A DNA stretch of 35,951 bases from an uncultured Oscillospiraceae bacterium. GTDB taxonomy: Bacteria; Bacillota; Clostridia; Oscillospirales; Oscillospiraceae. Below the pieces are notes generated by a model. It saw only the letters and a program-made list of their open reading frames with translations. It did not search any database and was not told where the DNA came from. A program made the translations under genes and the position numbers. How positions within the stretch are numbered: position 1 is the stretch's first letter; every line of letters starts with the position of its first letter. Shown piece by piece: positions 207-17,838 of this stretch. The DNA lies in contig CANQSU010000006.1 of the NCBI GenBank assembly GCA_947626585.1, positions 1 through 35,951 on the forward strand. The letters are read 5' to 3'.

Positions 207-2855
207 CTACTCCACCAACCCATACTTGACCTTGATGCGGTCCAGCTTCTCCAGCATGGGCTCGGCGGCAAAGAAGAGCGCCAGCGCCGTGGCCGCCGCC
301 TGGACGCAGTCCATGGGGAAGCCGGTGAAGTAATAGGTCAGGATCACGCCCCAATTCACCGTGGCCGACCAGGTCAGAGCGGAGGCCGGGTTCATGATCC
401 CGCCGTAGACCACGATGGCGGTGATGGCGCCGAACACCGCCAGCGCCTCCCGATTGCGGCGCAGAAGCCCCCTGCGGAACAGCACCCCCGCCAGAAACCC
501 GATGATCCCCATGGCGAACATCTGCCAGGGCGTCAGAGGTCCCTGGGAGAAAAACATATTGGACGCCAGCATGGTCAGCGAGCCCACCAGGAAGCCCGTC
601 TCGCCGCCGAAGGCCACCCCCGCGATGATGGTGATCGCCATCACCGGCTTGAACTGGGGCAGCATGAAAAACGCCACCCGGCCCGCCACCCCCAGGGCGC
701 ACAGGACGGCCGTGATCACAAGCTCCCGCGCCTGGGGCCGGCGGCCCTCGAACACCAGGAAGAACGGCAGCATACACTCCAGCAGCACCAACAGGGAGAT
801 GAAATAGTATTTCCGGTCCCCCAGATAAAATCGGCCTACGAACAGCGTCACGGGGATACACAGCAATATCATCACCGCGGCCGCGGCGGTCCGTTTGCTC
901 AGCTTTCCCTTCGCTGCCGGGGATTGGAGCGCCGCGGCGGGCGGTTTCGACCGCCTGCCGATGGAGGCGGCCAGCGCCGCCAGCGCCGCGATGAGCACCC
1001 CGTACACCGCCAGGCTGGGGGCCGCCGCCTCCGTCAGTCCGCCGCCGGTGACGAGAGCGCTGAGGTCCGTCACCGAAAGCGCCTTGAGAAAGGCTCCCAA
1101 GGCCACCAGGGCGCTCACGATTGCGGTTATTTTTCGCCACCGCGGCAGTGTCTTGACGGCGGCCCGCTCCGACTGCTTTTCGGGCAGCGTATATCCGGTC
1201 CCGTCGGTCGGTTCCTCCCGGGGCAATGTCCCACCGCAGGCGCGGATCACGTCCTCCGCCGTCACCGCCTCCGGCAGCACGGCCCGGCACATGCGGCTGG
1301 CCGATGTGGTGTAAAAGCTGTTGCCGGAAAAGAACCGGCGGGGCGTGTCCTGGGCCACGATGTTCCCGTCAAAGAACAGGGCGCAGCGGTGGGCGTGGCG
1401 GGCGCAGAACTCCACGTCGTGGCTGGCCATGAGCACCGTCACTCCGGCGGCCAGCAGGTCCCGCAGGATGCGGGCGAACACCAATTTGAACTCCGCGTCC
1501 AGGCCCTTTGTGGGCTCGTCCATGAGCAGGATCTCCGGGCGCAGGAGCAGCACCTTGGCCAGCGCCGCACGTTGCTGTTCGCCTCCGGAGAGGTCGTATG
1601 GGTGCCTGTCCAGAAGCTCTTCCAGCCGGCACAGCGTGACGATCTGAGCCAGCCGCTCCATCTGCACAGAGCCGTCTGTCCGGCGGCCCTGGAAGATCTC
1701 CTCCAAATCCTCCCGGACGGTCTTTTTGACAAAGAGCGTCTGCGGGTCCTGGGGCAGCACGCCCACGGCGCCCCTTGTGACGATGTCGCCCCGATAGGGC
1801 GTCTCCAGCCCCGCCAGCAGCTTCAGGGTAGTGGTCTTGCCGGTGCCGTTGCCGCCCAGCAGGGCCAGAAACTCGCCCCGCCTCACCCGCAGGTCCAGGC
1901 CCTTCACCACGTCGGGCCCGTCCTTATCGTATTTGAACCACACCCCCTGGGCCTCGATGGCGGCCTCCTCCGGGTATGGATAGGTCCGCTCCGCCGGAAG
2001 GGGCAGGGGCGGGTGGCGCTCACAATAGCGCTCCAGCCAGTTCCGTCCCTCGTTCACGGTGACGGGGCAGTCCCCCTCCGCCCCCGTGGCGGCCCAGATG
2101 CGCATGGGCGCGGGCATTGCCAGGGACATCCCCTGTCCCGCATTCAGCAGCTCCCGGCCCACCTCCGCCGGAGCGCCGGCGCAGACCAGTCTGCCCCCGT
2201 CCATGACGGCCACCCGGTGGGCGAGGGGGAACGCCTCCTCCAGCCGGTGCTCCGTCAGGATCACCGTGGTGCCCAGCTCCCGGTTGACCCGGCCCACGGC
2301 CGCCAGAAAGTCCGACGCGGCGATGGGGTCCAGCTGGCTGGTGGGCTCGTCCAGAATAAGGATCTGAGGCTGCATGACCATGACGGAGGCCAGATTCAGC
2401 AGCTGTTTCTGCCCGCCCGACAGCTCCGTCACGTTCTTGTAGAACCACGTCTGGATGCCGAAGAACGACGCCATCTCCGCCACCCGGCGGCGGATAGAGG
2501 GGGTGTCGCGGCCCAGGCTCTCCAAGCCGAAGGCCAGCTCGTGCCACACCTTATCCGTGACGATCTGGCTCTCCGGCGACTGCCGCACGAACCCGATGCG
2601 CTCGCTCTGGGCCCGCAGGTCCAGAGAATCCAGGTCCTCGCCGTCCACCAGGATCCTTCCCTCACGGACGCCGTGGGGCCGGAGGACGGTTTTCAGCTGT
2701 AAGAGCAGCGTGCTCTTGCCGCACCCGGACGGACCGCAGAGCACAAGGAATTCCCCCCGCTCCACGCTCAGGGTCAGGCCGTCCACGGCCCGCCGCTCCT
2801 GCTCCGGGTAGGTAAACGAGAGGTCCTGTATCTCAAGGATGTTGTTATCCGGCAT
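207..2855 (-). CDS. ECF transporter: two fused ATPase domains plus C-terminal membrane (S-like) domain
   Basis: This 882-aa protein is a double energy-coupling-factor ATPase. The first ABC domain has Walker A GPSGCGKST (residues 41-49), signature LSGGQ (145-149) and Walker B ILILDE (165-170). The second has Walker A GGNGTGKT (334-341), signature LSGGE (422-426) and Walker B ILLMDE (442-447). Residues from about 575 to the end are hydrophobic, with several membrane spans resembling an ECF substrate-binding S component (GVAFGGETGF, then a C-terminal helix pair). Separate EcfA and EcfA' proteins and a free S protein are more common, so the A-A-S fusion is notable. The ATG at 2855 follows GGAGGGG and overlaps the upstream EcfT gene by 11 bases. 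Its place under a cobalamin riboswitch makes corrinoids the likely substrate (inference). The ATPase assignment is firm; the substrate is not proven. Confidence 0.9.
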   Translation of the reverse strand: MPDNNILEIQDLSFTYPEQERRAVDGLTLSVERGEFLVLCGPSGCGKSTLLLQLKTVLRPHGVREGRILVDGEDLDSLDLRAQSERIGFVRQSPESQIVTDKVWHELAFGLESLGRDTPSIRRRVAEMASFFGIQTWFYKNVTELSGGQKQLLNLASVMVMQPQILILDEPTSQLDPIAASDFLAAVGRVNRELGTTVILTEHRLEEAFPLAHRVAVMDGGRLVCAGAPAEVGRELLNAGQGMSLAMPAPMRIWAATGAEGDCPVTVNEGRNWLERYCERHPPLPLPAERTYPYPEEAAIEAQGVWFKYDKDGPDVVKGLDLRVRRGEFLALLGGNGTGKTTTLKLLAGLETPYRGDIVTRGAVGVLPQDPQTLFVKKTVREDLEEIFQGRRTDGSVQMERLAQIVTLCRLEELLDRHPYDLSGGEQQRAALAKVLLLRPEILLMDEPTKGLDAEFKLVFARILRDLLAAGVTVLMASHDVEFCARHAHRCALFFDGNIVAQDTPRRFFSGNSFYTTSASRMCRAVLPEAVTAEDVIRACGGTLPREEPTDGTGYTLPEKQSERAAVKTLPRWRKITAIVSALVALGAFLKALSVTDLSALVTGGGLTEAAAPSLAVYGVLIAALAALAASIGRRSKPPAAALQSPAAKGKLSKRTAAAAVMILLCIPVTLFVGRFYLGDRKYYFISLLVLLECMLPFFLVFEGRRPQARELVITAVLCALGVAGRVAFFMLPQFKPVMAITIIAGVAFGGETGFLVGSLTMLASNMFFSQGPLTPWQMFAMGIIGFLAGVLFRRGLLRRNREALAVFGAITAIVVYGGIMNPASALTWSATVNWGVILTYYFTGFPMDCVQAAATALALFFAAEPMLEKLDRIKVKYGLVE

Positions 2856-3753
2856 GGGCGTTCCCCTCCGTGCGCTCGTTCCACTGCCTGTCGCCGTACA
2901 CGTCCATGGCCAGGGGCGTCAGGCACAGCGCCAGATACGCCGCGCCCAGCAGCACCGCCATGGGGGACGGCTCCACCCCGCCCAGGACGGGGAAGTACAG
3001 CCAGGACGCGCCCCCGGCGGCGGCCCCGGCGATCACGAAGCCGCCGGCGGACACAAGCCAGGTCAGGGCGTACCTGTCCCTCTCGTCCAGCGCGTAGATG
3101 GAGAACGCCGTCCGCCCCGGCAGGCCGTAGCCCCGGCTCCGCATGGAGTCCGCCGTCTCGATGGCGTTCTCCAAACTCCACGTCACCATGATGGACAGAA
3201 CGGTGACGGCCTCGCGGACCCGCCGCAGAAATCCCTCCTCATCGCCGCTCCGGCCCAGACACCGCCGGCTCTGGCTCACCCGGCGGAACTGCGCCTTGAA
3301 CCGGGGGACGAACCGCAGCGTCATGGACAGCACCAGGCTCATGGCCGGGATGATCCGGCCAAACAGGTACACGAACTTGTCCGTGGTCAGCACCTCGGTG
3401 CAGGAGGAAAACCACAGCACCACGCTCACCAGCATGGCGGCGGAGGCAACGCCGTACCAGATGCTCTCCGCCGTCAGGGGATTGCCGGTGGGCAGGTACA
3501 GGAGGATGGTGGCCCCCTCGTGGTTGAACGCGGGGTTCACCACCGCCGCCAGCAGGGCCATGGGCAGCAGATACCGAAGGCCAGACCTCACCGCCCGGCC
3601 CCCTTTCAGCACGACCTGATAGGCGAACGCGGAGGCCAGGGAGATGCAGATGTAGGCCGGGTGGGTGAGGAACATGGTACAGCCCAGCACCAGCGCGAAG
3701 TACAGAAAGTTGACCAGTGGGTGGCAGCTTGAAAATGTGTCCGCGTGTCTCAT
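2845..3753 (-). CDS. ecfT: ECF transporter transmembrane coupling subunit (EcfT)
   Basis: This 302-aa polytopic membrane protein couples ATP hydrolysis to movement of the substrate-binding subunit. Family features seen are NPAFNHEGAT near residues 73-82 and the coupling-helix motif SMRSRGYG (203-210), which is the ARG-type motif that docks on the ATPases. Amphipathic, basic coupling segments follow residue 148 and several hydrophobic helices surround them. The chosen ATG at 3753 has GGAAAGGAG upstream; a longer open frame to 3909 lacks membrane character and is rejected. It starts 17 bases after the stop of the tethered DUF4430 gene and its end overlaps the ATPase gene by 11 bases, so the two subunits should be made together. 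Confidence 0.92.
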   Translation of the reverse strand: MRHADTFSSCHPLVNFLYFALVLGCTMFLTHPAYICISLASAFAYQVVLKGGRAVRSGLRYLLPMALLAAVVNPAFNHEGATILLYLPTGNPLTAESIWYGVASAAMLVSVVLWFSSCTEVLTTDKFVYLFGRIIPAMSLVLSMTLRFVPRFKAQFRRVSQSRRCLGRSGDEEGFLRRVREAVTVLSIMVTWSLENAIETADSMRSRGYGLPGRTAFSIYALDERDRYALTWLVSAGGFVIAGAAAGGASWLYFPVLGGVEPSPMAVLLGAAYLALCLTPLAMDVYGDRQWNERTEGNAHAG

Positions 3754-3770
3754 GGGGCGCTCCTTTCCCC

Positions 3771-4703
3771 TCAACCCTGCACCGCGCCCGTGCCGCCCAC
3801 GTCGGCGCCCAGATTGCAGGTGTACACCCAGCGGATGACGTCGCCGTCGGAGAGGGTATAGGCGCTGCAGCCGTAGTTGGGAAATACGCTGTTGACGCTG
3901 TACATCCACCCGGACAGCTCCCCGCAGTCGAACTCATACAGATTGCCGATGCCCTCCACATAGACGGAGTTGTACATGGGGGTGAAGGATGCCTCCATGT
4001 GGATGCCGTTGGCCCGGGTCACCCGCTTCAGCACGTCATATACGCTCTCGCCCTCGGTGAAGGTCACGGAGGTGGTCCCCAGCAGCGTGCCGCCGGGGGG
4101 CACCAGTCTCGCCTTGCCGGGGGTCAGATAGTCCATGTTGTTCAGGATGGTGGCGCAGGAGATGGAGATGGTACACACCGGCTCCCGAGGCTCCGGCGTT
4201 GGTGTAGGAGCGGGTGTGGGTACGGGTGTAGTTACCGGTGTGGGTTCGACCGGCTCCGGCGTGGGTGCGGGCGTCGGAGTTGGTGCGGGTGCCGGCGTGG
4301 GAGCAGGCGTCGGCTTTTCCGGTTCCGAAGTCGGCGCGGACGTAGGTTTTACAGGCTCCGGGGTCGGGGCGGATGTTGGCTTTTCAGGCTCCGGGGTAAG
4401 CGTGGGCGCAGGCGCGGCCGGCTCCAACATGGGCGTGGTCGTAGGAGCGGCGGGATCCGCTGTCCCCGCCGCCGGACTGTCCGACGGCCCGGCAGCGCTC
4501 ACCCGTTCTGTCACGGACGGGGAGGGCGCGGCGGTGGGTCCGTCCTCCGGGGTCCCGCTGACGGCGGCGCTGGGCCCGCCCCCAGCGGTCCAGCCGTGGG
4601 AGTCCGGGGAGCTGCCGCCGATGTAGAAGGCCACGGCCAGCGCCGCGACGATCACCGCCGCCGCGATGACCTTCCCCCTGTGCTTGTTCCAAAACTCTCT
4701 CAT
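3771..4703 (-). CDS. Membrane-tethered DUF4430 (transcobalamin C-terminal-like) protein on a Pro/Thr stalk
   Basis: This 310-aa protein has a basic N-terminus and one hydrophobic helix (residues 11-29), which acts as a signal anchor. A low-complexity linker follows (about 30-175), the last part being runs of TPEP, TPAP and KPTSAP units that look like an extended cell-wall-spanning stalk. Residues about 177-302 form a DUF4430 domain: VYDVLKRVT (221-229), then GELSGWMYSVN (261-271) and SDGDVIRWVY (285-294), the hallmark strand pair. Four cysteines (183, 260, 279, 296) could form disulfides. In animals this fold is the C-terminal B12-binding domain of intrinsic factor and transcobalamin. ATG at 4703 overlaps the upstream stop as ATGA, and EcfT follows 17 bases downstream. 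I infer a membrane-proximal corrinoid-handling partner of the ECF transporter. Binding is not shown. Confidence 0.85.
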   Translation of the reverse strand: MREFWNKHRGKVIAAAVIVAALAVAFYIGGSSPDSHGWTAGGGPSAAVSGTPEDGPTAAPSPSVTERVSAAGPSDSPAAGTADPAAPTTTPMLEPAAPAPTLTPEPEKPTSAPTPEPVKPTSAPTSEPEKPTPAPTPAPAPTPTPAPTPEPVEPTPVTTPVPTPAPTPTPEPREPVCTISISCATILNNMDYLTPGKARLVPPGGTLLGTTSVTFTEGESVYDVLKRVTRANGIHMEASFTPMYNSVYVEGIGNLYEFDCGELSGWMYSVNSVFPNYGCSAYTLSDGDVIRWVYTCNLGADVGGTGAVQG

Positions 4704-6304
4704 GACTGTTTCCCGCCCGTCTTGCGGTCCAGCTTGTCACAGAAGCGGTGAATGACCGCCGCCACCTCGCAGCGGGCGGCGCTTCCGCCGGGATCCAGGA
4801 CACCGCCGTCTTTGCCGGTGAGCAGCCCCTCGGCCACGGCCCACTCCATGGCCTCCCGCGCATAGGAAGAGATTTGGCCGGCGTCGCCGTAACCCCTCAG
4901 ATCGGCGGCCGCTGAGGTGTCGTACCCTTTGTAAACCGCATAGCGCATGAGCATGAGGGCCATCTGCTCCCGGGTGACGTTGTCCCCCACGCCGAATTTG
5001 GTGTCGGGATAGCCCTCGATGATTTTATTTCTGTTGGCCCAGATCACCGCGTCGGTGTACCACTGGCCGGCCGCCGCGTCCCCGAAGGAGGACCCGCCGC
5101 TGACGGCGGGCTCCCCGTCCAGACGGTACAGCACCGTGGCCAGCATCTCACGGGTCATGGGGGAGAGGGGGGCAAATCTGCCGTCCCCCACGCCGCCGAA
5201 CAGTCCCTTGTGGACCGCAAACGCCACGTCGTCATAGAACCAGTCGTCCTTCGAAACGTCGCTGAAGCTGATGTCCGGGATGTCGGGGACGGGCTCGTCC
5301 CCCTCTTCCGGCGTCATATCGTACAGTGTGTTCATGCCGTTCATCGCCCGCTTTGCCGCCGCCAGGGCGTACAGGCCCTGCTCGGTGGCCATGCCGTCCA
5401 CACCGCCGCCGTCGCCGGTGTGGACGAAGCCCTTGCCGGGGGTGTAGAAGCTCAGCAGCGCGTCAAGGACCGTCCGGCCGTTTTTGATAAATCGGCTGTC
5501 GTCCAGACTGACGCCCAGTTCGGTGAGGGCCACCACCACCTGTGCGGTGGATTCGCAGGTGGGTATCCCCGCACCGAAGGTGGCGGACGCGCTGAAACTG
5601 CCGTCCCCGTTCTGCAGGGCGGACAGCCTTGCCAACGCCCGGTCCACCGCCGCCCGGACGTCGGCCCGGTCCGTGTACTTCGCCAGCGCCTGGAGGGCCA
5701 TGCCGGTGACGTCGGCGTCGTCCCCCCGGCCGCTCACCAGGGCCCAGCCGCCGTCCTTCTCCTCCCGGCTGAGGATGTAGTCCACGTACATCTCCCTGGT
5801 GGCCTGGATCTTGGCGTCGGGGTCGACGGGCATATCGTATCTGCCGCTGTCCAGGGCGATTAGCGCCCAGATGGGGCCGTTGATACCCTGCCAGATGGTC
5901 TTGTCAAAGTCTCCCAAAGGCTTTGTTAGGTCATAGCCTGCCACGCTGTGGGGGTCCTTTCCGATGGCCGTCAAGGCCAGGATCACACGGGAGTACTCCG
6001 TGTACTTGTGGGCGTGGAGCTGTCCGTTCCGCTCCAGGACATAGTTCTCCAGGTTTTTGTAATAGGTATCGTACCAGCTTTGGGGCACGGCCTCGCCGGA
6101 GCGGGCCAGGCCGATAATAGCCCACTCGCCGCCGGTGGAACCCACTTGGGGATTGCTCACCGTCTGATACATATACGCCGCTGTATCCTGAATGGCGGCC
6201 TCTAAAGCCTTGTCGCTGACTGCGGCGGAAGCGTTCACTGTCAGGCCCAGAAGCATGACCAGTGTGATTAGTAAACTCAGTCCTCTTTGCTTGAGCTGTT
6301 TCAT
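4700..6304 (-). CDS. SLH-anchored alpha/alpha-barrel protein (terpenoid cyclase / transcobalamin N-domain type)
   Basis: This 534-aa exported protein has a signal peptide (residues 1-28, cleavage near ASA-AVS). Residues about 30-330 form repeated helical-hairpin units of the prenyltransferase/squalene-cyclase superfamily: DVTGMALQALAKY (198-210), ESTAQVVVALTELG (251-264) and MATEQGLYALAAAK (305-318). Transcobalamin and intrinsic factor N-terminal domains share this alpha/alpha barrel. Catalytic aspartate motifs of true cyclases are not evident and the protein is outside the cell, so a ligand-binding role is more likely. Three SLH modules follow (about 346-390, 408-450, 468-520), which would hold it on secondary cell-wall polymers. 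ATG at 6304 overlaps the previous stop (ATGA) and its own stop overlaps the DUF4430 start, so barrel and beta domain are translated in tandem. Confidence 0.85.
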   Translation of the reverse strand: MKQLKQRGLSLLITLVMLLGLTVNASAAVSDKALEAAIQDTAAYMYQTVSNPQVGSTGGEWAIIGLARSGEAVPQSWYDTYYKNLENYVLERNGQLHAHKYTEYSRVILALTAIGKDPHSVAGYDLTKPLGDFDKTIWQGINGPIWALIALDSGRYDMPVDPDAKIQATREMYVDYILSREEKDGGWALVSGRGDDADVTGMALQALAKYTDRADVRAAVDRALARLSALQNGDGSFSASATFGAGIPTCESTAQVVVALTELGVSLDDSRFIKNGRTVLDALLSFYTPGKGFVHTGDGGGVDGMATEQGLYALAAAKRAMNGMNTLYDMTPEEGDEPVPDIPDISFSDVSKDDWFYDDVAFAVHKGLFGGVGDGRFAPLSPMTREMLATVLYRLDGEPAVSGGSSFGDAAAGQWYTDAVIWANRNKIIEGYPDTKFGVGDNVTREQMALMLMRYAVYKGYDTSAAADLRGYGDAGQISSYAREAMEWAVAEGLLTGKDGGVLDPGGSAARCEVAAVIHRFCDKLDRKTGGKQS

Positions 6305-7050
6305 TTGACGTATTCCTCCTTGTGAACTCCGTCGCGGGACGACGCCTCTGGAGATCCCGATGAAGCGCCGCGTGCCCGCAGCCAGAATTGACGCATGTGT
6401 TTCATGGTGTTCTTCCCCAGCACAGGTATCCCGATCTGATAGAACAGATTCTGCTCATTTCCGCAGCCCAACTTCTTCAGCTGTTTCCTCTGTGCTGCCG
6501 TCACCACCGGCGGCAGGCCCATCCTCTGCGCGGACCGGACCAGCCCTTCCAGCATCTCGCGGTCTGAGTCCAGAATTGTGATGTGCTTGGCCTGTGCGAT
6601 CCGATAAAATGGCTCCAGGTCGATTCGATCCGGCCAGTCCGGAGGCCACCGCCGCTCATCGCGCAAATTCTTACGTCGGATAATGGCCTGCGTCTTTGCC
6701 CGCTCCAAACTGCCAAAGCGCTTCCGAATATAAATTTTGTAAATACAGTAGATCCGTCCAAACTGCAGTTTCCTTTCGGCCCCTGTCCGCGTTTTGAGAA
6801 AGATGTCCAAAAGCTCCTCATCCGTATAGCTCTCATATACTTGGAGGCCGATCTGACTGCTCAGGCAAAAAGTTTCGTAAATTTCATCATCGCAGCTCTT
6901 GAAATCCCCGGTCTCCTGAGCCTCTTCGTCCAACTCAGAGAGCCATTGACGATACCCTTCCAGCTGTTTCCGGGTAAGCTTGCAGCTTTCGCTCTTTTTG
7001 TTTATGGGACCTCCTTTGGGCTTGCCGGGAATGGGCCCGCCGCAACGCAC
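6301..7050 (-). CDS. Unrecognised 249-aa protein with a possible homing-endonuclease-associated repeat
   Basis: The protein is charged, has no signal peptide or membrane span, and ends in EEYVK overlapping the next ATG. Residues about 77-119 contain a segment ending FGSLERAKTQA, which resembles the short repeat found beside HNH and homing endonucleases; this is a weak match by eye and no nuclease active site is visible. The gene looks lower in GC than its neighbours, hinting at later acquisition. The start is uncertain. The longest frame begins at a GTG (7050) preceded at 8 bases by GGGGAG. A much better Shine-Dalgarno, AAAGGAGGT (7017-7009), lies inside the frame just before an ATA codon (7005-7003), with no ATG nearby. 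It sits 46 bases after the TIM-barrel stop, within the operon. Confidence 0.6.
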   Translation of the reverse strand: MRCGGPIPGKPKGGPINKKSESCKLTRKQLEGYRQWLSELDEEAQETGDFKSCDDEIYETFCLSSQIGLQVYESYTDEELLDIFLKTRTGAERKLQFGRIYCIYKIYIRKRFGSLERAKTQAIIRRKNLRDERRWPPDWPDRIDLEPFYRIAQAKHITILDSDREMLEGLVRSAQRMGLPPVVTAAQRKQLKKLGCGNEQNLFYQIGIPVLGKNTMKHMRQFWLRARGASSGSPEASSRDGVHKEEYVK

Positions 7051-7096
7051 GAGTGTGACTCCCCGTGGCGGGGCTCATTTTGTGTGTTCAGAGCAA

Positions 7097-8071
7097 CTAA
7101 ATCTTCCCGTTCAGCAGCCGGCATTGCCGCCACAGCGCATCCCGCTTCCGCGGCCAGTCCTCTCCGCTCAGCTCATGGGTGAGCCAGGACGGCGCGATGC
7201 GCTCCAGCACCGGCAGGATCGCCGGGTCCGTCCAGGGCTCATGCCGGTCGATTTGCAGGATGTGCCGGTAACTGACGCCGAACCGCTCCGCCGGGTCTGC
7301 GGGAAGGTCCGGCGGCACCGCCCCGGTGTGTGCCGCCACGTAGGCCCCGCTGAGGGACTGGTGCAGGTGGACACCCCGCACCCACCGGGCCAGGCTCCCG
7401 TGCCGCTCCAGCATCTTTTGGATATAGGCGGCCCCCTCCGCTTGGGTGCGGAGGCGGGTGTTGGTGTTCATCAGGTGCCCCGTGTCCAGAAGGAGACCTT
7501 TTTGGCCGTAATGGACCCCGTCCAGCAGCCGCTCGGTCAGTCTCGGCTCCGTAAAGGTGAACCCGGGCCACCACTGGTTTTCCATCAAAAACGCGAAGGG
7601 CCACTCCCGGCCGTCCAGCAGGGTGTTGATGAGCTCCGCCGAGGCGTCGATGACCTCCTCGCTGCTGTGGAGCCAGCGGCAGGTGAAGGTCTCCTCCACC
7701 GAGACGTCGGAGACATGGAACACTACATAGTCCGGCCTCAGCGCCGCGGCCCGCTCCAGGTCCGCCCGGTATGCGGCCAGCAGCGTCTCCCGGCCGGTGC
7801 CGCCGTAGAAGCGGCGCACATTCTCCATATTGTCGAACTTCCGCTCCAGCGCCGTATGGTCCTCCCGGTACAGATCCAGCCAGTCCGAGAAAAAGGTCAG
7901 GTGGTAGCCGATTACCATGCCCTCGGGCAGCCCGGGCGGGAAATCCTCCCCGGCCCAGATGCCCTCCAAACCGTCGCAGCCCAGGTCCCGCAATTCGCGT
8001 TCCACCGCGTCCCAGTTTCCGAACTCCGCCAGAGCCCGGCCATCCAGGGGAAAGCTTACCGTCTGCCGCAC
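7097..8071 (-). CDS. Xylose-isomerase-like TIM-barrel protein (AP endonuclease 2 superfamily)
   Basis: This 324-aa cytoplasmic protein has the alternating strand/helix pattern of a TIM barrel. Candidate metal ligands lie at strand ends: H57 (GYHLTF), H119 (VFHVSD), E164 (LMENQWW), D196 and H199 (DTGHL) and H235/H237 (VHLHQS). That arrangement is typical of sugar-phosphate isomerase/epimerase and endonuclease IV relatives that bind divalent metals. The GTG start at 8071 has GAAGGG upstream. It sits downstream of a cobalamin riboswitch between the giant surface protein and the rest of the uptake operon. A role in handling an imported corrinoid or its lower ligand is possible but purely contextual. 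The fold is fairly sure; the substrate is unknown. Confidence 0.75.
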   Translation of the reverse strand: MRQTVSFPLDGRALAEFGNWDAVERELRDLGCDGLEGIWAGEDFPPGLPEGMVIGYHLTFFSDWLDLYREDHTALERKFDNMENVRRFYGGTGRETLLAAYRADLERAAALRPDYVVFHVSDVSVEETFTCRWLHSSEEVIDASAELINTLLDGREWPFAFLMENQWWPGFTFTEPRLTERLLDGVHYGQKGLLLDTGHLMNTNTRLRTQAEGAAYIQKMLERHGSLARWVRGVHLHQSLSGAYVAAHTGAVPPDLPADPAERFGVSYRHILQIDRHEPWTDPAILPVLERIAPSWLTHELSGEDWPRKRDALWRQCRLLNGKI

Positions 8072-8126
8072 CGCTTAGCCCTTCTTTCTCTCGTTGTACG
8101 CTGTCACAGCTGATCCGCTCCAAATG

Positions 8127-8166
8127 CGGCGTGAGCCGGACCCGGTTTCGGGTCCGGCATACGCCG
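8127..8166 (-). other. Intercistronic hairpin
   Basis: A stem of ten pairs (8135-8144 with 8149-8158, loop of 4) is extended by an outer six-pair stem (8127-8132 with 8161-8166) after a two-base internal loop. No T-run follows on the minus strand. It is therefore more likely an mRNA processing or stabilising element between the giant surface-protein gene and the TIM-barrel gene than a terminator. Confidence 0.6.
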
Positions 8167-8188
8167 TGTTGTTGTCATTTCGGGCCGG

Positions 8189-11100
8189 TCACGCCACGAT
8201 CAAGCGGACCATGCGCTGAAGGATCATCGCCACCTCGGCCCGTGTGGCGTCGCCCGCCGGATCGAGTCTGCCGCCGTCCATGCCCTGGATCAGCCCCGCG
8301 CCCACGGCCCACTTCACCGCGTCGGAGGCATAGCCGGAGACCGCGTCCCCGTCGGCAAAGGCGTCCAGATCGTCAGAGGCCGTCACGTCCAGGCCCAGGT
8401 CCTTGGCGTACCGCCACAGCATGGTGGCAAGCTGCTCCCGGGTGACGTCGCTGTTGGGCGCAAACTTTCCGTCATAGCCCTCCACGATGCCGTGCTGACT
8501 GGCCCAGGCCACGCCCTCGGTGTACCAGGTGCCGTCTTCCACATCGGTGAACGCGCCGGTCACGTCCGCGTCCTGCTCGTTCTCCAGCCGCCACAGCACC
8601 GTGGCCAGCATGCCGCGGCTCATGGGAAGCTCCGGCGCGAAGGCGCTCTCCGACACGCCCACAAAGAGCTCACGGCTGGACGCAAAATCTACCGCGCCGT
8701 CATACCAGACGCCGGCGGTCACGTCGTCGAACTCCTTGCGGTTGTCCGCCAGCTTCACGGTGCAGCTGCCGCCCAGCAGGGCGTCGATGCGGCCGTCCTC
8801 CGTGATGGACTTTTTCACCACGGTTTCGGTGCCGTCGGGCTCCACGATCACCAGCACCTGGCCCTCCGCCGCCGGCAGTCCGGCCTTGAGGCCGCCCGCC
8901 AGCGCCTCCACCGCCTTGCCGTCCACGGACACCTGAATGGCGGTGCCGCCGTCCTTGGTCTCCACGGAGACGCTGACCTTGCTGCCGGTCTGGCCGGCCA
9001 GGCCCTCCAGACTTGCCTGGGGGATGGTCACGTCAGCCGCGCCGGTCTTGACGGTGAGGTCCGCGTCGGTCTGCTTGGCCACCGCGTCCACGCTGGACTT
9101 GTCCAGCTCCACGGTGATCTTGTCCGCGCTGCCCTCCACCTGGGGGGCGATGACGATCTCGTCCGCGCCGGTCTGCTTCGCGTCGGCCACCGCGTCCTTT
9201 ACCGCCTGGGTGCCGATCTCCGTTTTCGCCTCGCCGGAGGCGTCGGGGGTGACGGTGGGGGAGAGGGTCTCGGCGGGCTCGGGGCTCTCAGAGGGCTTGG
9301 GAGGAGTAACGGTCCCGCCGCCCCAGTTCTCGGAGCCGTCCTCCTTTGTGTAGTCGTCAGTGTAGTGGAAGATGATCACATCGCCGCTATCCAAGAATTG
9401 TTGTTCCACACCCAAGTCGGAGTGTGTGCCGTTGATGGTGTACATCCATCCGGAGAGTTCACCGTTGCTGAATTCGGACAGCGTCGTGCCGTTCCAGGTT
9501 ACAGTCTCGACGTAGTTACCCGAGTTGACATAGGAGAGCCCCGGATTCTCGCTGGCTACTTTCTCCATCAGATCCCAGACCGTGGAGTTGAAGGGCACCT
9601 TGTAGGTCCTGCGGGCGATCCAGGTTTGCAGGCCGCCGTACTTCAGCGTATGGGAACCGCCGCCCTTGCCATGAGGTGTGTCGCCCATAAGGGTAAAGGA
9701 CACGGAAAGCTCCGTGGGCTTGTCCGACTGCGGGGGTATATCCAGCACACGGATATCAAAGAACGCCTGTATGCCCTGATACTCCGCCATAACCGTATAC
9801 ACGGCCCGTTTGCTCATATCATAGCCGGAGAAAGTGACCTGGGCGGGTTCAACCGTTTTGGTGTTGCCGTCGCTGTATGTGGCGGTGATGGTCATACCAT
9901 CGGAGTTGAATTCGTCGCCCACATAATAGGTATCCTTGTATGTACCGGAGATTTCGAGCTTGTAAACCACAGGTACATCAGAGTGTACAGGATGCTTGGA
10001 ACCTGTGGCCCAGTTTTTCAGGCTGGTTTCAGAGGCTTGCAGCTTGTTCAGCACATACCCGTCCAGCATTTGATCCGCAGTGACCGCCATGCCCAGGTTG
10101 TCTGCGTCCTTGCCCAGAGGATCGTCTGCACGGTTGCAATTATTCTTGTCTACACCGGTCAGATTCGGCAAAGCCTTGGAGGTATCAAAGTAGGTAGTGC
10201 CGCTGATAGAACCGTGAGACGCATTGGTGTCCACATAGGTTGCGCTACCAATAGCCCCGGTGGCACCGCAGGTGTCCAGGTAATAGTTGTTGCTAATGAT
10301 CTGATACTTATTTAGGCTGCGGGTATAACCCACGACTCCGCCGACAGAAGCGCCGGCTCCCGTGCCTTTCAGAGTACCGTAGAACACATTGTCGGTGATA
10401 TAGCCGTTGTTCCAGCACTGGATTATACCGGACTCCGCTCCTAGGATGCCACCGACATATCGGGTGCCGGTGATCGTGGCGTCAACATAGCAGTTCTGAA
10501 TGGTCACCACAGGGGAGTTGGGGGCTCCGCCGTAGCCGGTCCCAATGATCCCGCCGGCGTTTCCCCCAGTGGATGTCACCGTTCCCATAAATGCGCAGTT
10601 GATGATCTGGCACGGCCCCATGCTCTGGTCTTTGGCACTGATGATACCGCCGACAGTATAACCCCCATACACATCGGCGTAACTGGTGCAGTTGATTACG
10701 GTACCGTTGATTTTACCGGCAAAGCTGCCCACCTGGCTCTCCGATCCTGGGCCGTTGCTTTCAGCATCCCAGCCGATCTTTACGTCCCGCTCCACAGTGC
10801 AGTTGCGAATGTTTACAATGTTGCCGCCGGAGGCCATGGGGTTGCCGCCGATAAAGCCGGCATTTCTGAGTACGGAACCGCTCTTGATGGTACAGTTGAT
10901 GATATCGATGGTATCCGGGCAGCCCGCCTTGAAACTTCCACCCATTCCCACATTATAGTCTCCGTCATCGCCGTAGTCCACATAGTAGTGGCTGACCAGG
11001 CCATAGCCGGCCATATAGGGGGCGAAAATGTTCAGATTCTTTACGGTGGCCTCTCGGACGTACTTGAACAGGGGCTCCGTCTCGCCGTAGGCGTAAGTCA

Positions 11101-13552
11101 GAGTGTGCCCCTTCCCGTCCAGAGTTCCGGAGAAGGGCTGTAATTTTTCACCGGACCCTTCCGTTTCGCCGGCGCCTATTGAGGTCCAGTCCTCTGTCAG
11201 GGTGATGTCCTCTGTCAGTTCAAAATATGCGCCGGCAAAATCGTAGGCTTCGCTCTTGGGCGATTTATTTACATATTCGCGGAGCTTCTCCAGATCAGAT
11301 TGACTTTTTAGCTTCCAAGGGCTGTTCTCGGTGCCGTCACCATCCCACGATCCGGTCACCTCTGTATAATCCGTCGGGGCGTTTTCTACATAAACGAAAA
11401 CATCTACATATTGTGACCTGAAGCTTCTTCCCAACAATTCATAATCAATAGCGCACCTATACAAGCACGGACCATATTCATTGTCGGTTTGGGGAATAAG
11501 CTGAAACTCAATTTCAGCCTTACGTGATGTTTCCTTTATTAAGCTGCCAACTGCACTGAATCCCCCATCATAAAGTCTATAATAATTATAATCAACAACA
11601 AGGCCATCAGTATTTGCCGGAACTGCCGATGTTATTTTATATTTCAATGGGGATGCTAGGTCACCGGTATGGTAATAAAACCCTTCTGTGAAGTTTCCAT
11701 GGCTAAACGCATATTTGCTCATATCATCGCCTGGTAGCCTCGACGGGGAACTCAACAGAGTGACAGTAGGGGTGGGATCCGGATAGACGATGATTTGCGC
11801 CGGTACAGAACTGGCCGCCGCCCCCTCCACGTCTTTGTTTGTGACGACACAGTAATAATAGAAGGTCCCGGACTCCTCCGCGCTGGGCGTATAGCTGGTC
11901 TGTTCCGCGCCGGGGATCAATGTGCCGCCGCTGTTGCTGTTTTCCGTGTTCTTGTACCACTGGTAATTTACGTCCCCACTGGCTGTGGCGACCACCGATA
12001 TGGGCTTCGCCGTGTCGCCGATGATATACCTGTCTCCCTCGGGCTGCGTCAGAATTGTGGGCATTGCCGCCTCCGCTACCAGCCGGAGGTTTAGCGTATA
12101 GCTATGGTCAACATAGCCGTCGCCCTCGCGGTGAACCTTTACCGGCACATGGATGACGCCGTCGTTCTTTTCCAGCCCCGCCAGGGACAGAGAGAATGCG
12201 CTCCCGGAGGCTGCCTCTTGGCCGTTGATGGTTACGGTGTCCCCCTCCTGCTTGGCAGTGGCCGTGATTTGGACGTCCTGGGCGCTCTCACTGATATAGA
12301 CGCTGAAAGCGTCCCCGACAGGATCGAACTCTCCGATCGGTGTTCCCCCCGCCACAGCCAGACCGGTCAACTCCACAATGCGCTTTATATCGACATTATA
12401 AGAGGCCAGGATTGCGTTGATATAGAAATTAGGGGAAAAAACCCGAAACTGCAGTGTGCTTTCATTTGTGACCGCGACCGCTTTGGGCGTGTCGTTGAAA
12501 TTGTATGTTCCAGCAATCATGGCCCTACCGGGCGGCTCAGCAAACACGCACCACTTAAGGGAATCAAACACCTGCCCATCCGAAGATACCTTGGCATAGA
12601 TGTTTTTGCTGCTCTCCGGTATGGTGATCGAACGGTCTTGGTTCCCCGGCTGAAATGCAGGCGTCAGGAGATTGGCGGTCGTTCCCCCGGCATCCATACC
12701 GAGCCAGATATTCGTGACTTCCGGGACTGCGTCCAGCACCGTTACAAGGCAGACAGGAACCAACGTCGTCTCTTTCTTGAGTTCGTCAGAGGTTGCAGTC
12801 AACACATAGCTACCGGATTCCGAAAAACATAGGGTAAGCGCACCGTCTACATCCTGTGTAGCATTCAACGAAGTAAATTCTGTTATTCCATTATCTTCTA
12901 TTTTTCCCGCCGAGAGACGTATGCCGGTAGTTTTTAACTCTGCGTTTACAAGTGAACTCCGTGTCAAAACATAGATTTTCGCGGGCAAGGCCTTTACTGT
13001 TGTCAGAGTTTCGGATGCCGGGTCAGTCTTTGCACTTGAACCGCTATGGGGCGTGAAAAAGGCGTTTTTCGTTTTGTTCTCAGCACCCGCGGCAACTCCC
13101 ACGTTCAGCATATCTCCCGTTGATAATGCTGTGCTGCCAATTTTTTGGGAGTAGGCATCATTGGCATTCTTTGTCGGCATACTGATCAGGACCGCGCCGT
13201 CCTTCCCCCAAACTTTGGTGGCAGATTGATGCTTTTCATCCGCCGCAAAGCCACTCTCACCCTCTGAATAATACTGTTCATGAGCGCAGACCAGCGCGTC
13301 ATAAGTGGTGATTTGACCGTCCTCATCCTTGTCTGTCACGGTCAGTTCCTTCATGGCCATATAGGATTTATCCTTTGCTTGTACGAGTTCACCATCTATG
13401 CTGACGGTGACCCGGATGTCGACGCTCTCAGCCGCCGAGGTCGTTACCGGCAAGTCAGCTTCCAGCTGTTCCTGCGACGCTGCCAATGCAGTGGCAGGAC
13501 AAAGGCTTATCAGAAGTGCTGCTGCCAACAGATAAGATAGAATTTTCCTCAT
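8189..13552 (-). CDS. Giant SLH surface protein with Ig-like, beta-helix and DUF4430 domains
   Basis: This 1787-aa secreted protein begins with a signal peptide (residues 1-25). Residues about 44-160 form a beta domain containing a calcium-loop-like DKDEDGQITTYDAL (75-88). An Ig-like domain follows near 498-590 (NYQWYKN, YYYCVVTN). A GLUG/right-handed beta-helix-like stretch covers about 740-1130 (GDGTENSPW, FSGTLDGKGHTLTY, many NC and GGI repeats). A bacterial Ig group 3-like domain lies near 1190-1255 and a DUF4430 domain near 1270-1385, with GELSGWMYTING and SGDVIIFHY. A Pro/Ser/Glu linker, a beta domain and three SLH modules (about 1604-1787) complete it. ATG 13552 follows AAGGGAG. It is the second gene of the riboswitch operon, probably a surface scaffold presenting a corrinoid-binding domain (inference). 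Length is well beyond ordinary DUF4430 proteins. Confidence 0.88.
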   Translation of the reverse strand: MRKILSYLLAAALLISLCPATALAASQEQLEADLPVTTSAAESVDIRVTVSIDGELVQAKDKSYMAMKELTVTDKDEDGQITTYDALVCAHEQYYSEGESGFAADEKHQSATKVWGKDGAVLISMPTKNANDAYSQKIGSTALSTGDMLNVGVAAGAENKTKNAFFTPHSGSSAKTDPASETLTTVKALPAKIYVLTRSSLVNAELKTTGIRLSAGKIEDNGITEFTSLNATQDVDGALTLCFSESGSYVLTATSDELKKETTLVPVCLVTVLDAVPEVTNIWLGMDAGGTTANLLTPAFQPGNQDRSITIPESSKNIYAKVSSDGQVFDSLKWCVFAEPPGRAMIAGTYNFNDTPKAVAVTNESTLQFRVFSPNFYINAILASYNVDIKRIVELTGLAVAGGTPIGEFDPVGDAFSVYISESAQDVQITATAKQEGDTVTINGQEAASGSAFSLSLAGLEKNDGVIHVPVKVHREGDGYVDHSYTLNLRLVAEAAMPTILTQPEGDRYIIGDTAKPISVVATASGDVNYQWYKNTENSNSGGTLIPGAEQTSYTPSAEESGTFYYYCVVTNKDVEGAAASSVPAQIIVYPDPTPTVTLLSSPSRLPGDDMSKYAFSHGNFTEGFYYHTGDLASPLKYKITSAVPANTDGLVVDYNYYRLYDGGFSAVGSLIKETSRKAEIEFQLIPQTDNEYGPCLYRCAIDYELLGRSFRSQYVDVFVYVENAPTDYTEVTGSWDGDGTENSPWKLKSQSDLEKLREYVNKSPKSEAYDFAGAYFELTEDITLTEDWTSIGAGETEGSGEKLQPFSGTLDGKGHTLTYAYGETEPLFKYVREATVKNLNIFAPYMAGYGLVSHYYVDYGDDGDYNVGMGGSFKAGCPDTIDIINCTIKSGSVLRNAGFIGGNPMASGGNIVNIRNCTVERDVKIGWDAESNGPGSESQVGSFAGKINGTVINCTSYADVYGGYTVGGIISAKDQSMGPCQIINCAFMGTVTSTGGNAGGIIGTGYGGAPNSPVVTIQNCYVDATITGTRYVGGILGAESGIIQCWNNGYITDNVFYGTLKGTGAGASVGGVVGYTRSLNKYQIISNNYYLDTCGATGAIGSATYVDTNASHGSISGTTYFDTSKALPNLTGVDKNNCNRADDPLGKDADNLGMAVTADQMLDGYVLNKLQASETSLKNWATGSKHPVHSDVPVVYKLEISGTYKDTYYVGDEFNSDGMTITATYSDGNTKTVEPAQVTFSGYDMSKRAVYTVMAEYQGIQAFFDIRVLDIPPQSDKPTELSVSFTLMGDTPHGKGGGSHTLKYGGLQTWIARRTYKVPFNSTVWDLMEKVASENPGLSYVNSGNYVETVTWNGTTLSEFSNGELSGWMYTINGTHSDLGVEQQFLDSGDVIIFHYTDDYTKEDGSENWGGGTVTPPKPSESPEPAETLSPTVTPDASGEAKTEIGTQAVKDAVADAKQTGADEIVIAPQVEGSADKITVELDKSSVDAVAKQTDADLTVKTGAADVTIPQASLEGLAGQTGSKVSVSVETKDGGTAIQVSVDGKAVEALAGGLKAGLPAAEGQVLVIVEPDGTETVVKKSITEDGRIDALLGGSCTVKLADNRKEFDDVTAGVWYDGAVDFASSRELFVGVSESAFAPELPMSRGMLATVLWRLENEQDADVTGAFTDVEDGTWYTEGVAWASQHGIVEGYDGKFAPNSDVTREQLATMLWRYAKDLGLDVTASDDLDAFADGDAVSGYASDAVKWAVGAGLIQGMDGGRLDPAGDATRAEVAMILQRMVRLIVA

Positions 13553-13568
13553 AATACTCCCTTCTCAC

Positions 13569-13613
13569 AACAGCAGGGGGAGTGCGATTTACACTCGCAT
13601 TCCCCCTGCTGTT
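13569..13613 (-). other. Long intercistronic hairpin upstream of the giant gene
   Basis: A 19-pair stem with only one G.T pair (13569-13587 with 13595-13613, 7-base loop) lies between the small secreted-protein gene and the ribosome binding site of the giant gene. No T-run follows on the minus strand. Such barriers commonly protect the 3' end of an abundant upstream cistron, which would let the small protein be made in excess over the giant one. Confidence 0.7.
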
Positions 13614-13661
13614 AAACGTTATTTCAAATTTGCTTTGCAGTCAATAAACATTTGCCTTGAT

Positions 13662-14285
13662 CTACATCTGGGTATAGAGCTCATAATACCCGCAGTCCAC
13701 ATAGAGCGTGATGCCGCCCTTTGCGGGGATGTTGCTGAGATACTCTGTCGGGAATGTGATATCGTTGGTTGCCGCATCGCCCATAGCCACTACAAACCCG
13801 TAGCCCTTGATGAAATAGAGCTCATCAGTGATTTTCTTAAGCGAGGTCACATGAGCGAGATTTTCAAAGTCGGAGATGTAGAAGCCCGGGGCTCCAACCA
13901 CAGGATCAGGATCATATCCATAACTAGGGGTATCTACTTTTGCGACCTCTGCAATCACATCCAAATAGGAAACTTGCCCCGGCAGGGGATCTGGATGTCC
14001 ATTTAGGTACAGATTTTTATTCTGCAAGAGCGCATCAGTAATAGTAACATCGACAGGGCCATATACGATTTGGTCAGCTGTGGGGGCACCAATGATTGCC
14101 CATTCGTACTCAGTCGCATCAGGGTCTTCCTCGGTGTTGTAGGAAATCGTGCAGTCTTTAGTGAAAACTACACGAACCACGCCTTCAGGGACATCATCCT
14201 CCGCCGCGAACGCGGTCGCGCCCAGGGACAGGACCATCATCAGGGCCAACACCATGGCCAGGATCTTCTTACTTGCCTTTTTCAT
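13662..14285 (-). CDS. Small secreted protein, possible diverged DUF4430 domain; first gene of the B12 operon
   Basis: This 207-aa precursor has a typical signal peptide (residues 1-28, ending ATAFA-AEDD). The mature chain is about 180 residues with no membrane anchor, SLH module or sorting motif, so it should be released or loosely held. YLDVIAEVAK (107-116), GFYISDF (134-140), GYGFVVAMGD (161-170) and a final GGITLYVD (190-197) follow the order of the DUF4430 strand and helix blocks in the two clearer copies of this operon. I infer a diverged member of that fold, with moderate trust. The chosen ATG at 14285 has AAAGGAAG 7 bases upstream; longer frames run into the regulatory leader. It is the riboswitch-proximal gene and is separated from the giant gene by a strong hairpin. 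Confidence 0.75.
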   Translation of the reverse strand: MKKASKKILAMVLALMMVLSLGATAFAAEDDVPEGVVRVVFTKDCTISYNTEEDPDATEYEWAIIGAPTADQIVYGPVDVTITDALLQNKNLYLNGHPDPLPGQVSYLDVIAEVAKVDTPSYGYDPDPVVGAPGFYISDFENLAHVTSLKKITDELYFIKGYGFVVAMGDAATNDITFPTEYLSNIPAKGGITLYVDCGYYELYTQM

Positions 14286-14516
14286 AACACAACTTCCTTT
14301 CATAATTTTTATAAACGGCCAGGGACAGCCGCTTATGCGCAAAGATAACATTGGCGTCACGCCACAGATACGGTACCAGTTCCTGCGCTGCCGTCCGCCC
14401 CGACGCGCACCGCGTTGTTCGGCCCCTTGACCCGCTCCTGTCATCGCAGATTTCCCCAAGGCCGGTATCTTCTCCCGCTGTGGGTATTCAGTTGTCAACG
14501 CCCAAAGGGCGTAAGA
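14286..14516 (-). other. Untranslated leader between tandem terminators and first gene
   Basis: About 230 GC-rich bases separate the second terminator from the first ATG. There is no convincing reading frame on either strand. Complementary segments are visible (AGATAC near 14470 and GTATCT near 14365) and a short GGCGTGACGCC hairpin lies near 14355, so it is probably structured, but I cannot assign a known RNA family. Confidence 0.4.
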
Positions 14517-14561
14517 TACGAAAAACAAAATGCGGCCTGACGCTCCCGCGTCACAGCCGCA
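14517..14561 (-). terminator. Second intrinsic terminator of the riboswitch leader
   Basis: On the minus strand a long stem (14561-14548 with 14544-14531, with a small bulge) is followed by ATTTTGTTTTT. It stands directly after the first terminator, making a tandem stop downstream of the cobalamin riboswitch. Confidence 0.8.
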
Positions 14562-14574
14562 TCCGGGCACAGCA

Positions 14575-14602
14575 ACAAAAAGCCACGGCAAAATGCCGTG
14601 GC
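14575..14602 (-). terminator. First intrinsic terminator of the riboswitch expression platform
   Basis: On the minus strand a perfect 9-bp stem GCCACGGCA / TGCCGTGGC with a 3-base loop is followed by TTTTTGTTG. Its position about 50 bases after the B12 box marks it as the probable switch-controlled terminator: B12 bound, transcription stops. Confidence 0.85.
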
Positions 14603-14649
14603 GCCACTGTCCTTATCACCGCTCACATCTAAATCGGATGCGCCAACCG

Positions 14650-14875
14650 GTTTGCTTCGCGTAGGTCTCCTGACTTGTGTATAGGGCAGCCTGCTGGCGG
14701 CCCGCGCCGGACGATCAGCCTTCTCAGTTTCCCAATGACCGGCTTTCGCCCTGGGATCGTCCGTCTTCACACTTACAGTCGCGCTACGGTGGGGATTCGC
14801 ACCCCTTTGTCTGCTCCGCCGGGCGATGGGCCTGTGGCCTTTAGCTGCGGCGGACACGCGAAACGGTATTCAATT
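14650..14875 (-). promoter_or_regulatory. Cobalamin (AdoCbl-type) riboswitch
   Basis: Read on the minus strand, the conserved cobalamin riboswitch blocks appear in the right order. They are GGTGCGAATCCCC (about 14804-14792), GCGCGACTGTAAG (about 14784-14772) and the B12 box AGTCAGGAGACCT (about 14676-14664). The ends pair as a closing stem, TTCGCGT with ACGCGAA. Spacing to the promoter (TSS near 14894) and to the downstream terminators fits a transcription-attenuation switch. It should shut off the whole minus-strand operon when cobalamin is plentiful. Confidence 0.93.
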
Positions 14876-14900
14876 TTGAAGGTCTTTTCTTCCAATTTCC

Positions 14901-14929
14901 ATAATATACCCGTGCAGGCGGAAAGTCAA
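14901..14929 (-). promoter_or_regulatory. Sigma-70/A promoter of the B12 operon
   Basis: On the minus strand, TTGACT (14929-14924), a 17-base spacer and TATTAT (14906-14901). Transcription would start near 14894, about 20 bases before the riboswitch. Confidence 0.75.
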
Positions 14930-15023: not shown

Positions 15024-15048
15024 AATGTGCAGAAATGGAGGACGACAC

Positions 15049-16095: not shown

Positions 16096-16099
16096 CAGG

Positions 16100-16130
16100 A
16101 AGGCGGCTGAGCGATCAGCCGCCTTCTTTG
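16100..16130 (+). terminator. Intrinsic terminator of the Fic gene
   Basis: A perfect 11-bp stem (16100-16110 with 16115-16125, loop GCGA) is followed by CTTTG. It begins five bases after the Fic stop codon. Confidence 0.85.
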
Positions 16131-16300
16131 ATTCAGCGTCGCAACTTTTGATCCTCGCTATCCTATCAGACCCAAACGCTGACCCATACGCGGAAATAAC
16201 GCTATGGGGCGGACGGAACACATGGAGCGGAGAGTATCTTTTTCTGTGCGAAAGACCTCCAAACGGACACAAAACTGCGGGAAAACAGTATCGAAGGCAC
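16131..16300. other. Non-coding junction left of the element
   Basis: There is no supported gene here. One GACCTCC heptamer (16254-16260), like those inside both element ends, lies just outside the left repeat. This could be the right-hand remnant of an older element that used the same tRNA site. Confidence 0.35.
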
Positions 16301-16346
16301 CTCATAACCCGGAGGTCGTGCGGTTCAAATCCCACCCCCGCAACCA
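16301..16346 (+). repeat. Left attachment repeat: tRNA-fMet-like 3' half
   Basis: Anticodon loop CTCATAA, anticodon-stem strand CCCGG, variable loop AGGTC, T-loop TTCAAAT and acceptor strand ending CCCCGCAACCA are recognisable. The T-stem 5' strand has an extra base (GTGCGG opposite CCCAC). There is no 5' half upstream, so this is not a working tRNA. The first 18 bases (16301-16318) are identical to 23872-23889. Confidence 0.8.
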
Positions 16347-16349
16347 TAA

Positions 16350-16392: not shown

Positions 16393-16415
16393 CCCTCTGA
16401 CGGCTCAAAGGACGG

Positions 16416-16468: not shown

Positions 16469-16479
16469 AGCCCGGGGTG

Positions 16480-17827: not shown

Positions 17828-17838
17828 GAGGTACTTTA

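Follow-up and report, generated by a model that had tools for sequence, protein, structure and literature searches.

The window analyzed here, a stretch of 35,951 nucleotides (nt) from an uncultured Oscillospiraceae bacterium (GenBank assembly GCA_947626585.1, contig CANQSU010000006.1), carries a putative corrinoid uptake operon encoding an extracellular alpha/alpha barrel protein, DUF4430 proteins and an energy-coupling factor (ECF) transporter. Eight genes were read as one operon, extending on the minus strand from position 14929 to 207 behind a promoter-like site, a cobalamin riboswitch and a terminator. The gaps between consecutive genes, 5' to 3' along the operon, are 109, 117, 46, -4, -4, 17 and -11 nt, and the last five genes, encoding a 249-amino-acid (aa) protein, the barrel, a DUF4430 protein, the transporter T-component and a joint ATPase/S-component, overlap or almost do so. 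An earlier interpretation of this DNA, termed below the sequence-only reading, had proposed that the two halves of a transcobalamin-like carrier are encoded here by separate genes, clamp a corrinoid and pass it to the ECF complex.

The promoter-like site (TTGACT and TATTAT spaced by 17 nt; 14901..14929, minus strand) was found by a scan and agrees with the consensus at 10 of 12 positions; alone it is no evidence of function, and the first 15.1 kb holds nine such sites as compared to 4.6 in shuffled sequences. It is followed by the aptamer of the cobalamin riboswitch (RF00174; 14643..14876, minus strand), which scores 36.2 bits over the full model (positions 1-189; gathering score 31.5) and bears out the operon start given by the sequence-only reading. 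The 3.08-Mb assembly yielded 207 candidates of the family, and among the 150 that were scored no other one exceeded the gathering score. Directly past the aptamer lies an intrinsic terminator (14582..14602, minus strand) with a 9-bp stem, seven pairs of which are G-C, followed by TTTTTG; it is probably the expression platform of the riboswitch. When folded with the stretch preceding it, the terminator reaches -22.7 kcal/mol (z -2.1), a stability equalled by 7 of 200 shuffles. Terminator-like sites are as frequent in the first 15.1 kb as in shuffled sequences (12 versus 12.0, the site at 14602-14582 being the first of the 12), so that the case for this terminator rests on its own strength and position.

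The barrel protein is encoded at 4700..6304 (minus strand). Pfam, hydropathy and profile comparisons delimit a hydrophobic N-terminal segment of the secreted type (aa 7-30, read as a signal peptide), an alpha/alpha-toroid (aa ~29-335) and three SLH repeats (E 9.4e-29). Taken alone, the toroid of the window stays below the Pfam cut-offs (SQHop_cyclase_C with E 0.01 for the whole protein and 0.0024 when trimmed), and with 17.4 bits against a cut-off of 26.1 it does not qualify as a squalene-hopene cyclase. It was a profile built from 51 barrels that connected it to the toroid families, by matching squalene-hopene cyclase with an E-value of 7.5e-14. These 51 sequences include that of the window; Prenyltrans is matched by 43 of them and SQHop_cyclase_C by 42 (E<=10; best values 5.9e-7 and 4e-9), and the NCBIfam family squalene_cyclas is matched by 34 at E<=0.001. 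The extracellular alpha/alpha barrel of the sequence-only reading is thereby upheld.

The proximity of the profile to squalene-hopene cyclases (7.5e-14) and the 34 squalene_cyclas matches could also mean that the barrel is a secreted terpene-cyclase-like or other toroid enzyme whose position in the operon is incidental. Squalene-hopene cyclases have the catalytic motif D-x-D-D. In the barrels, D168-x-D170 is nearly invariant and T172 invariant (numbering of alignment A1), and these residues align with the DVDDT stretch of the cyclases, but the barrel consensus, DPDIT, lacks the third Asp. Further polar positions of the barrels that are invariant or nearly so are Q111, N114, E223, Q227 and Q281. 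An extracellular cyclase of membrane terpenoids would moreover be odd, and the barrels are regularly linked to a CbrT-like S-component, as detailed below. We consequently give little credence to an enzymatic role. As to the animal carriers, the barrel could not be identified by sequence as an animal-type alpha domain, no such match being obtained with the barrel profile, with a profile of barrel-DUF4430 fusions or with PF01122, the family of eukaryotic cobalamin-binding proteins; homology of this half to the alpha half of transcobalamin is supported no further than by shared toroid families.

The second half is encoded by the DUF4430 gene at 3771..4703 (minus strand), which overlaps the separate barrel gene (6304-4700) by 4 nt. 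Its product is predicted from hydropathy to be membrane-tethered, with an N-terminal hydrophobic segment (aa 8-33), a Pro/Thr-rich linker (aa 40-175, 43 of the 136 residues being proline) and a DUF4430 domain of the transcobalamin beta type (aa 218-295; PF14478, E 1e-17). A further DUF4430 domain (aa 1323-1398, E 6.8e-9) resides in a 1787-aa surface protein (8189..13552, minus strand), for which Pfam also reports Cadherin-like, Ig (weak) and Big_3 domains and three SLH repeats. With 64.8 and 36.5 bits, respectively, against a cut-off of 23.8, these two domains are the only DUF4430 matches found in the whole assembly. The sequence-only reading had counted two clear DUF4430 domains and one possible; the two clear ones stand, and the possible one, placed in the first gene of the operon (13662..14285, minus strand), was discarded: this gene encodes a secreted-type protein of 207 aa with an N-terminal hydrophobic segment (aa 4-29), for which Pfam gave no match and hhalign a probability of 0.2% against the DUF4430 alignment. 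The arrangement of the two halves as separate genes, one product SLH-anchored and the other membrane-tethered, agrees with that reading.

In order to relate the bacterial domain to the animal carriers, we compared profiles. All 56 rows of the DUF4430 alignment (A2) match PF14478 at E<=0.01, the domain having an S-G-W-x-Y stretch, and the profile of the bacterial domain is colinear with the beta segment of human transcobalamin-2 (hhalign probability 62%, E 7.4e-5). Against the human and bovine beta segments together, the probability was 49%; none of 200 column shuffles reached this score, the best shuffle having a probability of 3.1% and the reversed profile 0.3%. A C-terminal DUF4430 domain is also described, in the part of the publication available to us, for short teleost Tcn-like sequences, like TCN proteins (PMC4350170). 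These comparisons support homology of DUF4430 to the beta half of transcobalamin.

The two last genes encode the transporter, which the sequence-only reading had rightly described as a full ECF system. The T-component (2845..3753, minus strand; ATG at 3753, 17 nt past the DUF4430 stop codon) belongs to the CbiQ family (PF02361, E 9.7e-9). An 882-aa protein (207..2855, minus strand) combines two CbiO-type ATPase domains (ABC_tran twice, E 3.7e-57) with a C-terminal S-component (ECF_trnsprt, E 3.4e-7). In NCBIfam, the best family for the latter was the folate-family ECF S-component, at 19.3 bits against a cut-off of 60. A profile of 23 rows (alignment A9) gave a single significant match among PDB sequences: 6fnp_A was hit with an E-value of 1.4e-13, in a colinear alignment spanning residues 6-177 of 182, and 4hzu_S followed at 2.6. 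Entry 6fnp is ECF-CbrT of Lactobacillus delbrueckii, a proven B12 transporter whose CbrT moves both cobalamin and cobinamide and was studied in an E. coli strain devoid of btuF, btuC and metE (Santos et al. 2018, PMC5997447, as far as its text was available). Homologous S-component, ECF ATPases and T-component are shared by both systems; in L. delbrueckii one ECF module serves CbrT and FolT2 (PMC5997447), whereas in the window both ATPase domains and the S-component form one chain, and the operon also encodes extracellular proteins. The homology of the S-component to CbrT supports a corrinoid as the probable substrate, and corrinoid uptake, as put forward in the sequence-only reading, is further backed by the riboswitch and by the homology of DUF4430 to the transcobalamin beta half.

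A B12-related substance other than an intact corrinoid, such as cobalt, a lower-ligand base or a nucleoside, might nevertheless be imported: cobalt transport also figures in the names of the CbiO and CbiQ families, and a TIM-barrel protein of the operon distantly resembles the cobamide hydrolase CbiR. This possibility is very improbable in our view, the S-component being CbrT-like along its full length and CbrT a carrier of cobalamin and cobinamide (PMC5997447), with neither CbiM nor CbiN among the Pfam matches listed for the operon proteins (the first 25 for the 882-aa protein).

We then surveyed relatives of the barrel in 99 genomes (the window's own included) and by a scan of genome contigs, which together yielded the loci L001-L111 in addition to the window. 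Copies of the window locus (L001-L003), loci found twice (L006 and L010) and open reading frames (ORFs) bearing both domains were dropped, and a threshold of E<=1e-60 left 45 non-fused barrel ORFs, the window's among them. A DUF4430 ORF lies directly downstream on the same strand for 40 of the 45. Four of the remaining barrels end at most 2 nt from a contig end and the fifth (L064) is followed by 379 nt, such that adjacency amounts to 40 of 41 for barrels with more than 2 nt of downstream sequence. In one case (L090) the downstream DUF4430 ORF encodes a large protein with SLH, behind which the short DUF4430 gene is located. SLH repeats occur in 37 of the 40 paired barrels (window's included), and the DUF4430 partners carry an N-terminal hydrophobic segment in all 40 cases, a lipobox-like motif in eight and a linker with a median length of 113 aa.

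Barrel and DUF4430 are also found on one chain, in 13 ORFs from 13 loci (L001-L009 being outside this count). The DUF4430 domain follows the barrel in 12 of them, as in transcobalamin, L033 having one on each side, and precedes it in L063. This last fusion (L063 9395-10930, 512 aa) consists of two domains of the operon type behind an N-terminus that looks lipoprotein-like by eye, and upstream of it lies a second operon, which has barrel and DUF4430 as split genes together with those for CbiQ and ATPase/S. Finally, a mirror-tree comparison of 26 loci gave a partial correlation of 0.475 between barrel and DUF4430 distances given CbiQ and the S-component, the highest of five partial correlations (0.376 for barrel and CbiQ) and reached by none of 2000 permutations, which ignore shared ancestry; it points weakly towards a pairing of the two halves.

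To place these loci in a wider sample, 398 genomes of the window's phylum were drawn, 397 without the window's own, and searched with the L063 fusion as query, up to four candidates being scored per genome; the scans for the S-component and for barrel or DUF4430 were matched as one draw by genome handles, and nearby matches were counted by hand with the window left out. Of the 397 genomes, 111 possess an S-component and 49 gave a match to barrel or DUF4430. A CbrT-like S-component is present in every one of these 49 (hypergeometric probability 5.6e-32, a figure which ignores shared ancestry), located within 10 kb on one contig in 38 cases. For the other 11, the matches are on different contigs in ten and more than 20 kb apart on a shared contig (C10) in genome G344. 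A DUF4430 match lies within ~4 kb of 15 of the 18 barrel places (E<=1e-60), and a barrel match within ~4 kb of 20 of the 26 DUF4430 places. The fixed gene order, the one-chain fusions and the co-occurrence with the transporter support the view that the two halves are a functional pair. It is to be noted that 62 of the 397 genomes contain a CbrT-like S-component but match neither barrel nor DUF4430 at E<=1e-15.

An Rfam scan detected a cobalamin riboswitch upstream of the barrel gene, on the operon strand, in 18 of 33 loci. In the six Paenibacillus loci (L033-L036, L040 and L051) the riboswitch and the barrel match are no more than ~400 nt apart, and three of these loci (L034-L036) have a second riboswitch ahead of the other DUF4430 and SLH gene, which is encoded on the opposite strand. 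L037, L043, L050 and L053 each contain two or three cobalamin riboswitches around the operon, within one locus of ~22 kb. As for the host genome itself, CbiC and CobS were not found at E<=0.001 in the 84.75%-complete assembly, and one MetH-like B12-binding protein was assigned by reading its translation. This gene content fits a corrinoid scavenger.

Taken together, these observations are best explained by a vitamin-B12-repressed corrinoid uptake operon in which a two-half capture system is combined with ECF import, a reading to which, as a whole, we assign a probability of roughly two in three. Several observations weigh against it. Besides the association in the phylum draw being uncorrected for shared ancestry, the loci of the survey were collected through their similarity to the window barrel and some are close kin (e.g. 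L048 and L050), hence they are not independent events. In the phylum draw, a nearby DUF4430 match is missing for three of the 18 barrel places, all of them in G344 (4 of its 15 candidates having been scored), and a nearby barrel match for six of the 26 DUF4430 places. Among the 33 loci, 15 gave no riboswitch that exceeds the gathering score; nine of these start at or inside the first gene of the operon (L041, L042, L046, L048, L049, L052, L055, L059 and L090), and six have upstream sequence (L045, L058, L060, L062, L063 and L065). In a plain database search, the match of the DUF4430 profile (A2) to transcobalamin is weak (E 1.8, rank 3), and the fusion profile reaches transcobalamin through its beta half only (E 0.41). 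The matches of the barrel profile at E<=10 include squalene-hopene cyclases and not transcobalamin, and PF01122 matches one barrel of 51, other than the window's, with an E-value of 0.11. The incompleteness of the assembly qualifies the failure to find CbiC and CobS, and the host also encodes a BtuF/BtuC-like pair, assigned by reading translations, behind a sub-threshold riboswitch (29.4 bits); the operon is therefore not its only candidate B12 importer.

Some of these points would agree with corrinoid uptake that involves no joint clamp. The tethered DUF4430 protein would then be the sole binder of B12 and the supplier of the ECF complex, and the barrel would have another task, such as storage, docking to the wall or interaction with a donor protein. 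Homology to transcobalamin is detectable in DUF4430 and not in the barrel, the two halves have different anchors, and the six DUF4430 places with no barrel nearby fall in line with such a division of labor. On the other hand, the adjacency in 40 of 41 barrels, the 13 natural fusions and the partial distance correlation of barrel and DUF4430 (r 0.475, the highest of five over 26 loci) speak against it, and we consider it unlikely.

In the preferred reading, that of two-half capture with ECF import, low intracellular cobalamin would let transcription pass the terminator, the anatomy of this control region being apparent in the window and its regulation presumed from it. Expression of the operon would then supply the surface proteins and the ECF importer. 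The SLH-anchored toroid would be placed in the S-layer or wall, and the DUF4430 domain would extend from the membrane on its long proline-rich tether. Both halves may close on a corrinoid in the manner of the alpha and beta domains of transcobalamin, after which the membrane-tethered half would carry the ligand to the CbrT-like S-component for import by the CbiO/CbiQ motor, the identity of the transporter being assigned by homology. The 1787-aa SLH protein with the second DUF4430 domain is probably a further capture arm. The clamping of the corrinoid and its delivery to the ECF complex are what we infer from gene content and homology. Split intrinsic factor is reportedly able to reassemble around cobalamin, which makes a clamp in two pieces physically plausible. 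More tentatively, and at somewhat less than even odds, the clamp may have two anchors as well as two pieces, with the corrinoid acting as the glue between the S-layer toroid and the membrane beta-grasp domain, such that capture and delivery would be a single assembly step; the split form and the fusions in both orders would then illustrate bacterial stages on the way to the animal B12 carriers.

Surface capture of corrinoids feeding an importer is known from BtuG and BtuB of Bacteroides (PMC6143338, consulted in part) and is analogous to what we propose here, albeit with different folds, BtuG being a beta-propeller lipoprotein that works with the outer-membrane protein BtuB (PMC6977713 and PMC6143338, likewise in part). 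BtuG takes B12 from intrinsic factor (PMC6143338), and many of the relatives found here are, according to their record titles, assemblies from animal gut or faeces, from which it might be supposed that the system mainly serves B12 piracy from host gut carriers. The same operon is nevertheless present in Paenibacillus and in a Pelotomaculum assembly. Both are atypical for the gut, so that a host carrier is unlikely as the general donor, and we attach hardly any probability to piracy as the main function.

Two genes inside the operon are absent from the sequence-only reading. The first encodes a TIM-barrel protein of the AP_endonuc_2 superfamily (7097..8071, minus strand; PF01261, E 6.4e-5, 23.2 bits against a cut-off of 31.1). 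It is 57-60% identical to relatives in L048, L050 and L066 (alignment A7), with invariant His/Asp/Glu positions; the gene sits between the CbiQ and ATPase genes in these three loci and upstream of the barrel gene in the window. The AP endonuclease 2 superfamily is shared with CbiR, a cobamide-remodelling phosphodiesterase, and 25% of cbiR homologs adjoin putative transport genes (PMC7733943, available in part). An assignment as CbiR was nevertheless not supported, NF041277 giving 12.5 bits against a curated cut-off of 105 and no CobS having been found that would complete the remodelling. The second gene encodes the 249-aa protein (6301..7050, minus strand), which has relatives in L042, L050, L053 and L066 at 28-36% identity (alignment A8). 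Genes of this family are located within these operons or next to them (between two cobalamin riboswitches in L050 and L066), and the homing-endonuclease-associated HNH_repeat is present in three of five members, though not listed for the window's own; the family might be a DNA-binding regulator. On the promoter side of the operon, the window encodes a Fic-domain protein, a REP_ORF2-G2P replication-associated protein and a phage-type integrase (15025-20437, plus strand), which suggests an integrated mobile element, and further along a 2418-aa surface protein with SLH, YDG, Big_3_5 and Flg_new repeats (24198-31454, minus strand).

The core of this proposal is not new. Gram-positive transcobalamin-like domains, their fusions to toroids and associated CbiO/CbiQ genes were described by Burroughs et al. 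in 2007 (PMC1796856), who predicted B12 scavenging and proposed that animals acquired transcobalamin-like carriers laterally from Gram-positive bacteria; a reviewer warned there that the clade may have ligands other than B12. In the part of that publication available to us, the set resembles the window in its DUF4430-type beta-grasp domains, its secreted or surface proteins, its toroid fusions in either order, its operons with CbiO and CbiQ and its second paralogous surface protein. It differs in being a sequence-based prediction with fusions, whereas the window has separate overlapping genes, SLH versus membrane anchors, a cobalamin riboswitch and a CbrT-like S-component. The words riboswitch, SLH, S-component, energy-coupling, adjacent and split do not occur in its available text, although its figures could show a split pair. 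Among the best-ranked openly licensed papers of our literature search, which is not proof of absence, we found neither an experimental test nor a description of the split, riboswitch-controlled form. The Gram-positive B12 capture claimed in the sequence-only reading is thus less novel than it was thought to be, and the split, doubly anchored, riboswitch-controlled form appears to be new. Animal transcobalamin, intrinsic factor and haptocorrin likewise join an alpha/alpha toroid to a DUF4430-type beta domain, whose homology is detectable here; they are single chains, as are the fusions of the 13 other loci, whereas the window has two anchored chains, and no sequence-level link between the animal alpha domain and the window barrel was found.

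Putnam and Goodman pointed out, in the part of their text available to us, that many Gram-positive gut species have homologs of btuFCD but no btuB, and that variants of the known machinery may operate in them (PMC6977713). The operon described here is a concrete and testable extracellular capture system, and 49 of the 397 other genomes drawn from the phylum have a match to barrel or DUF4430, each together with a CbrT-like S-component. If our reading is correct, it would suggest a role for secreted proteins with toroid and SLH or with DUF4430 domains, which are left unnamed or are named as cyclases in family libraries, and it would make possible a functional test of the 2007 proposal on the Gram-positive origin of the animal B12 carriers.

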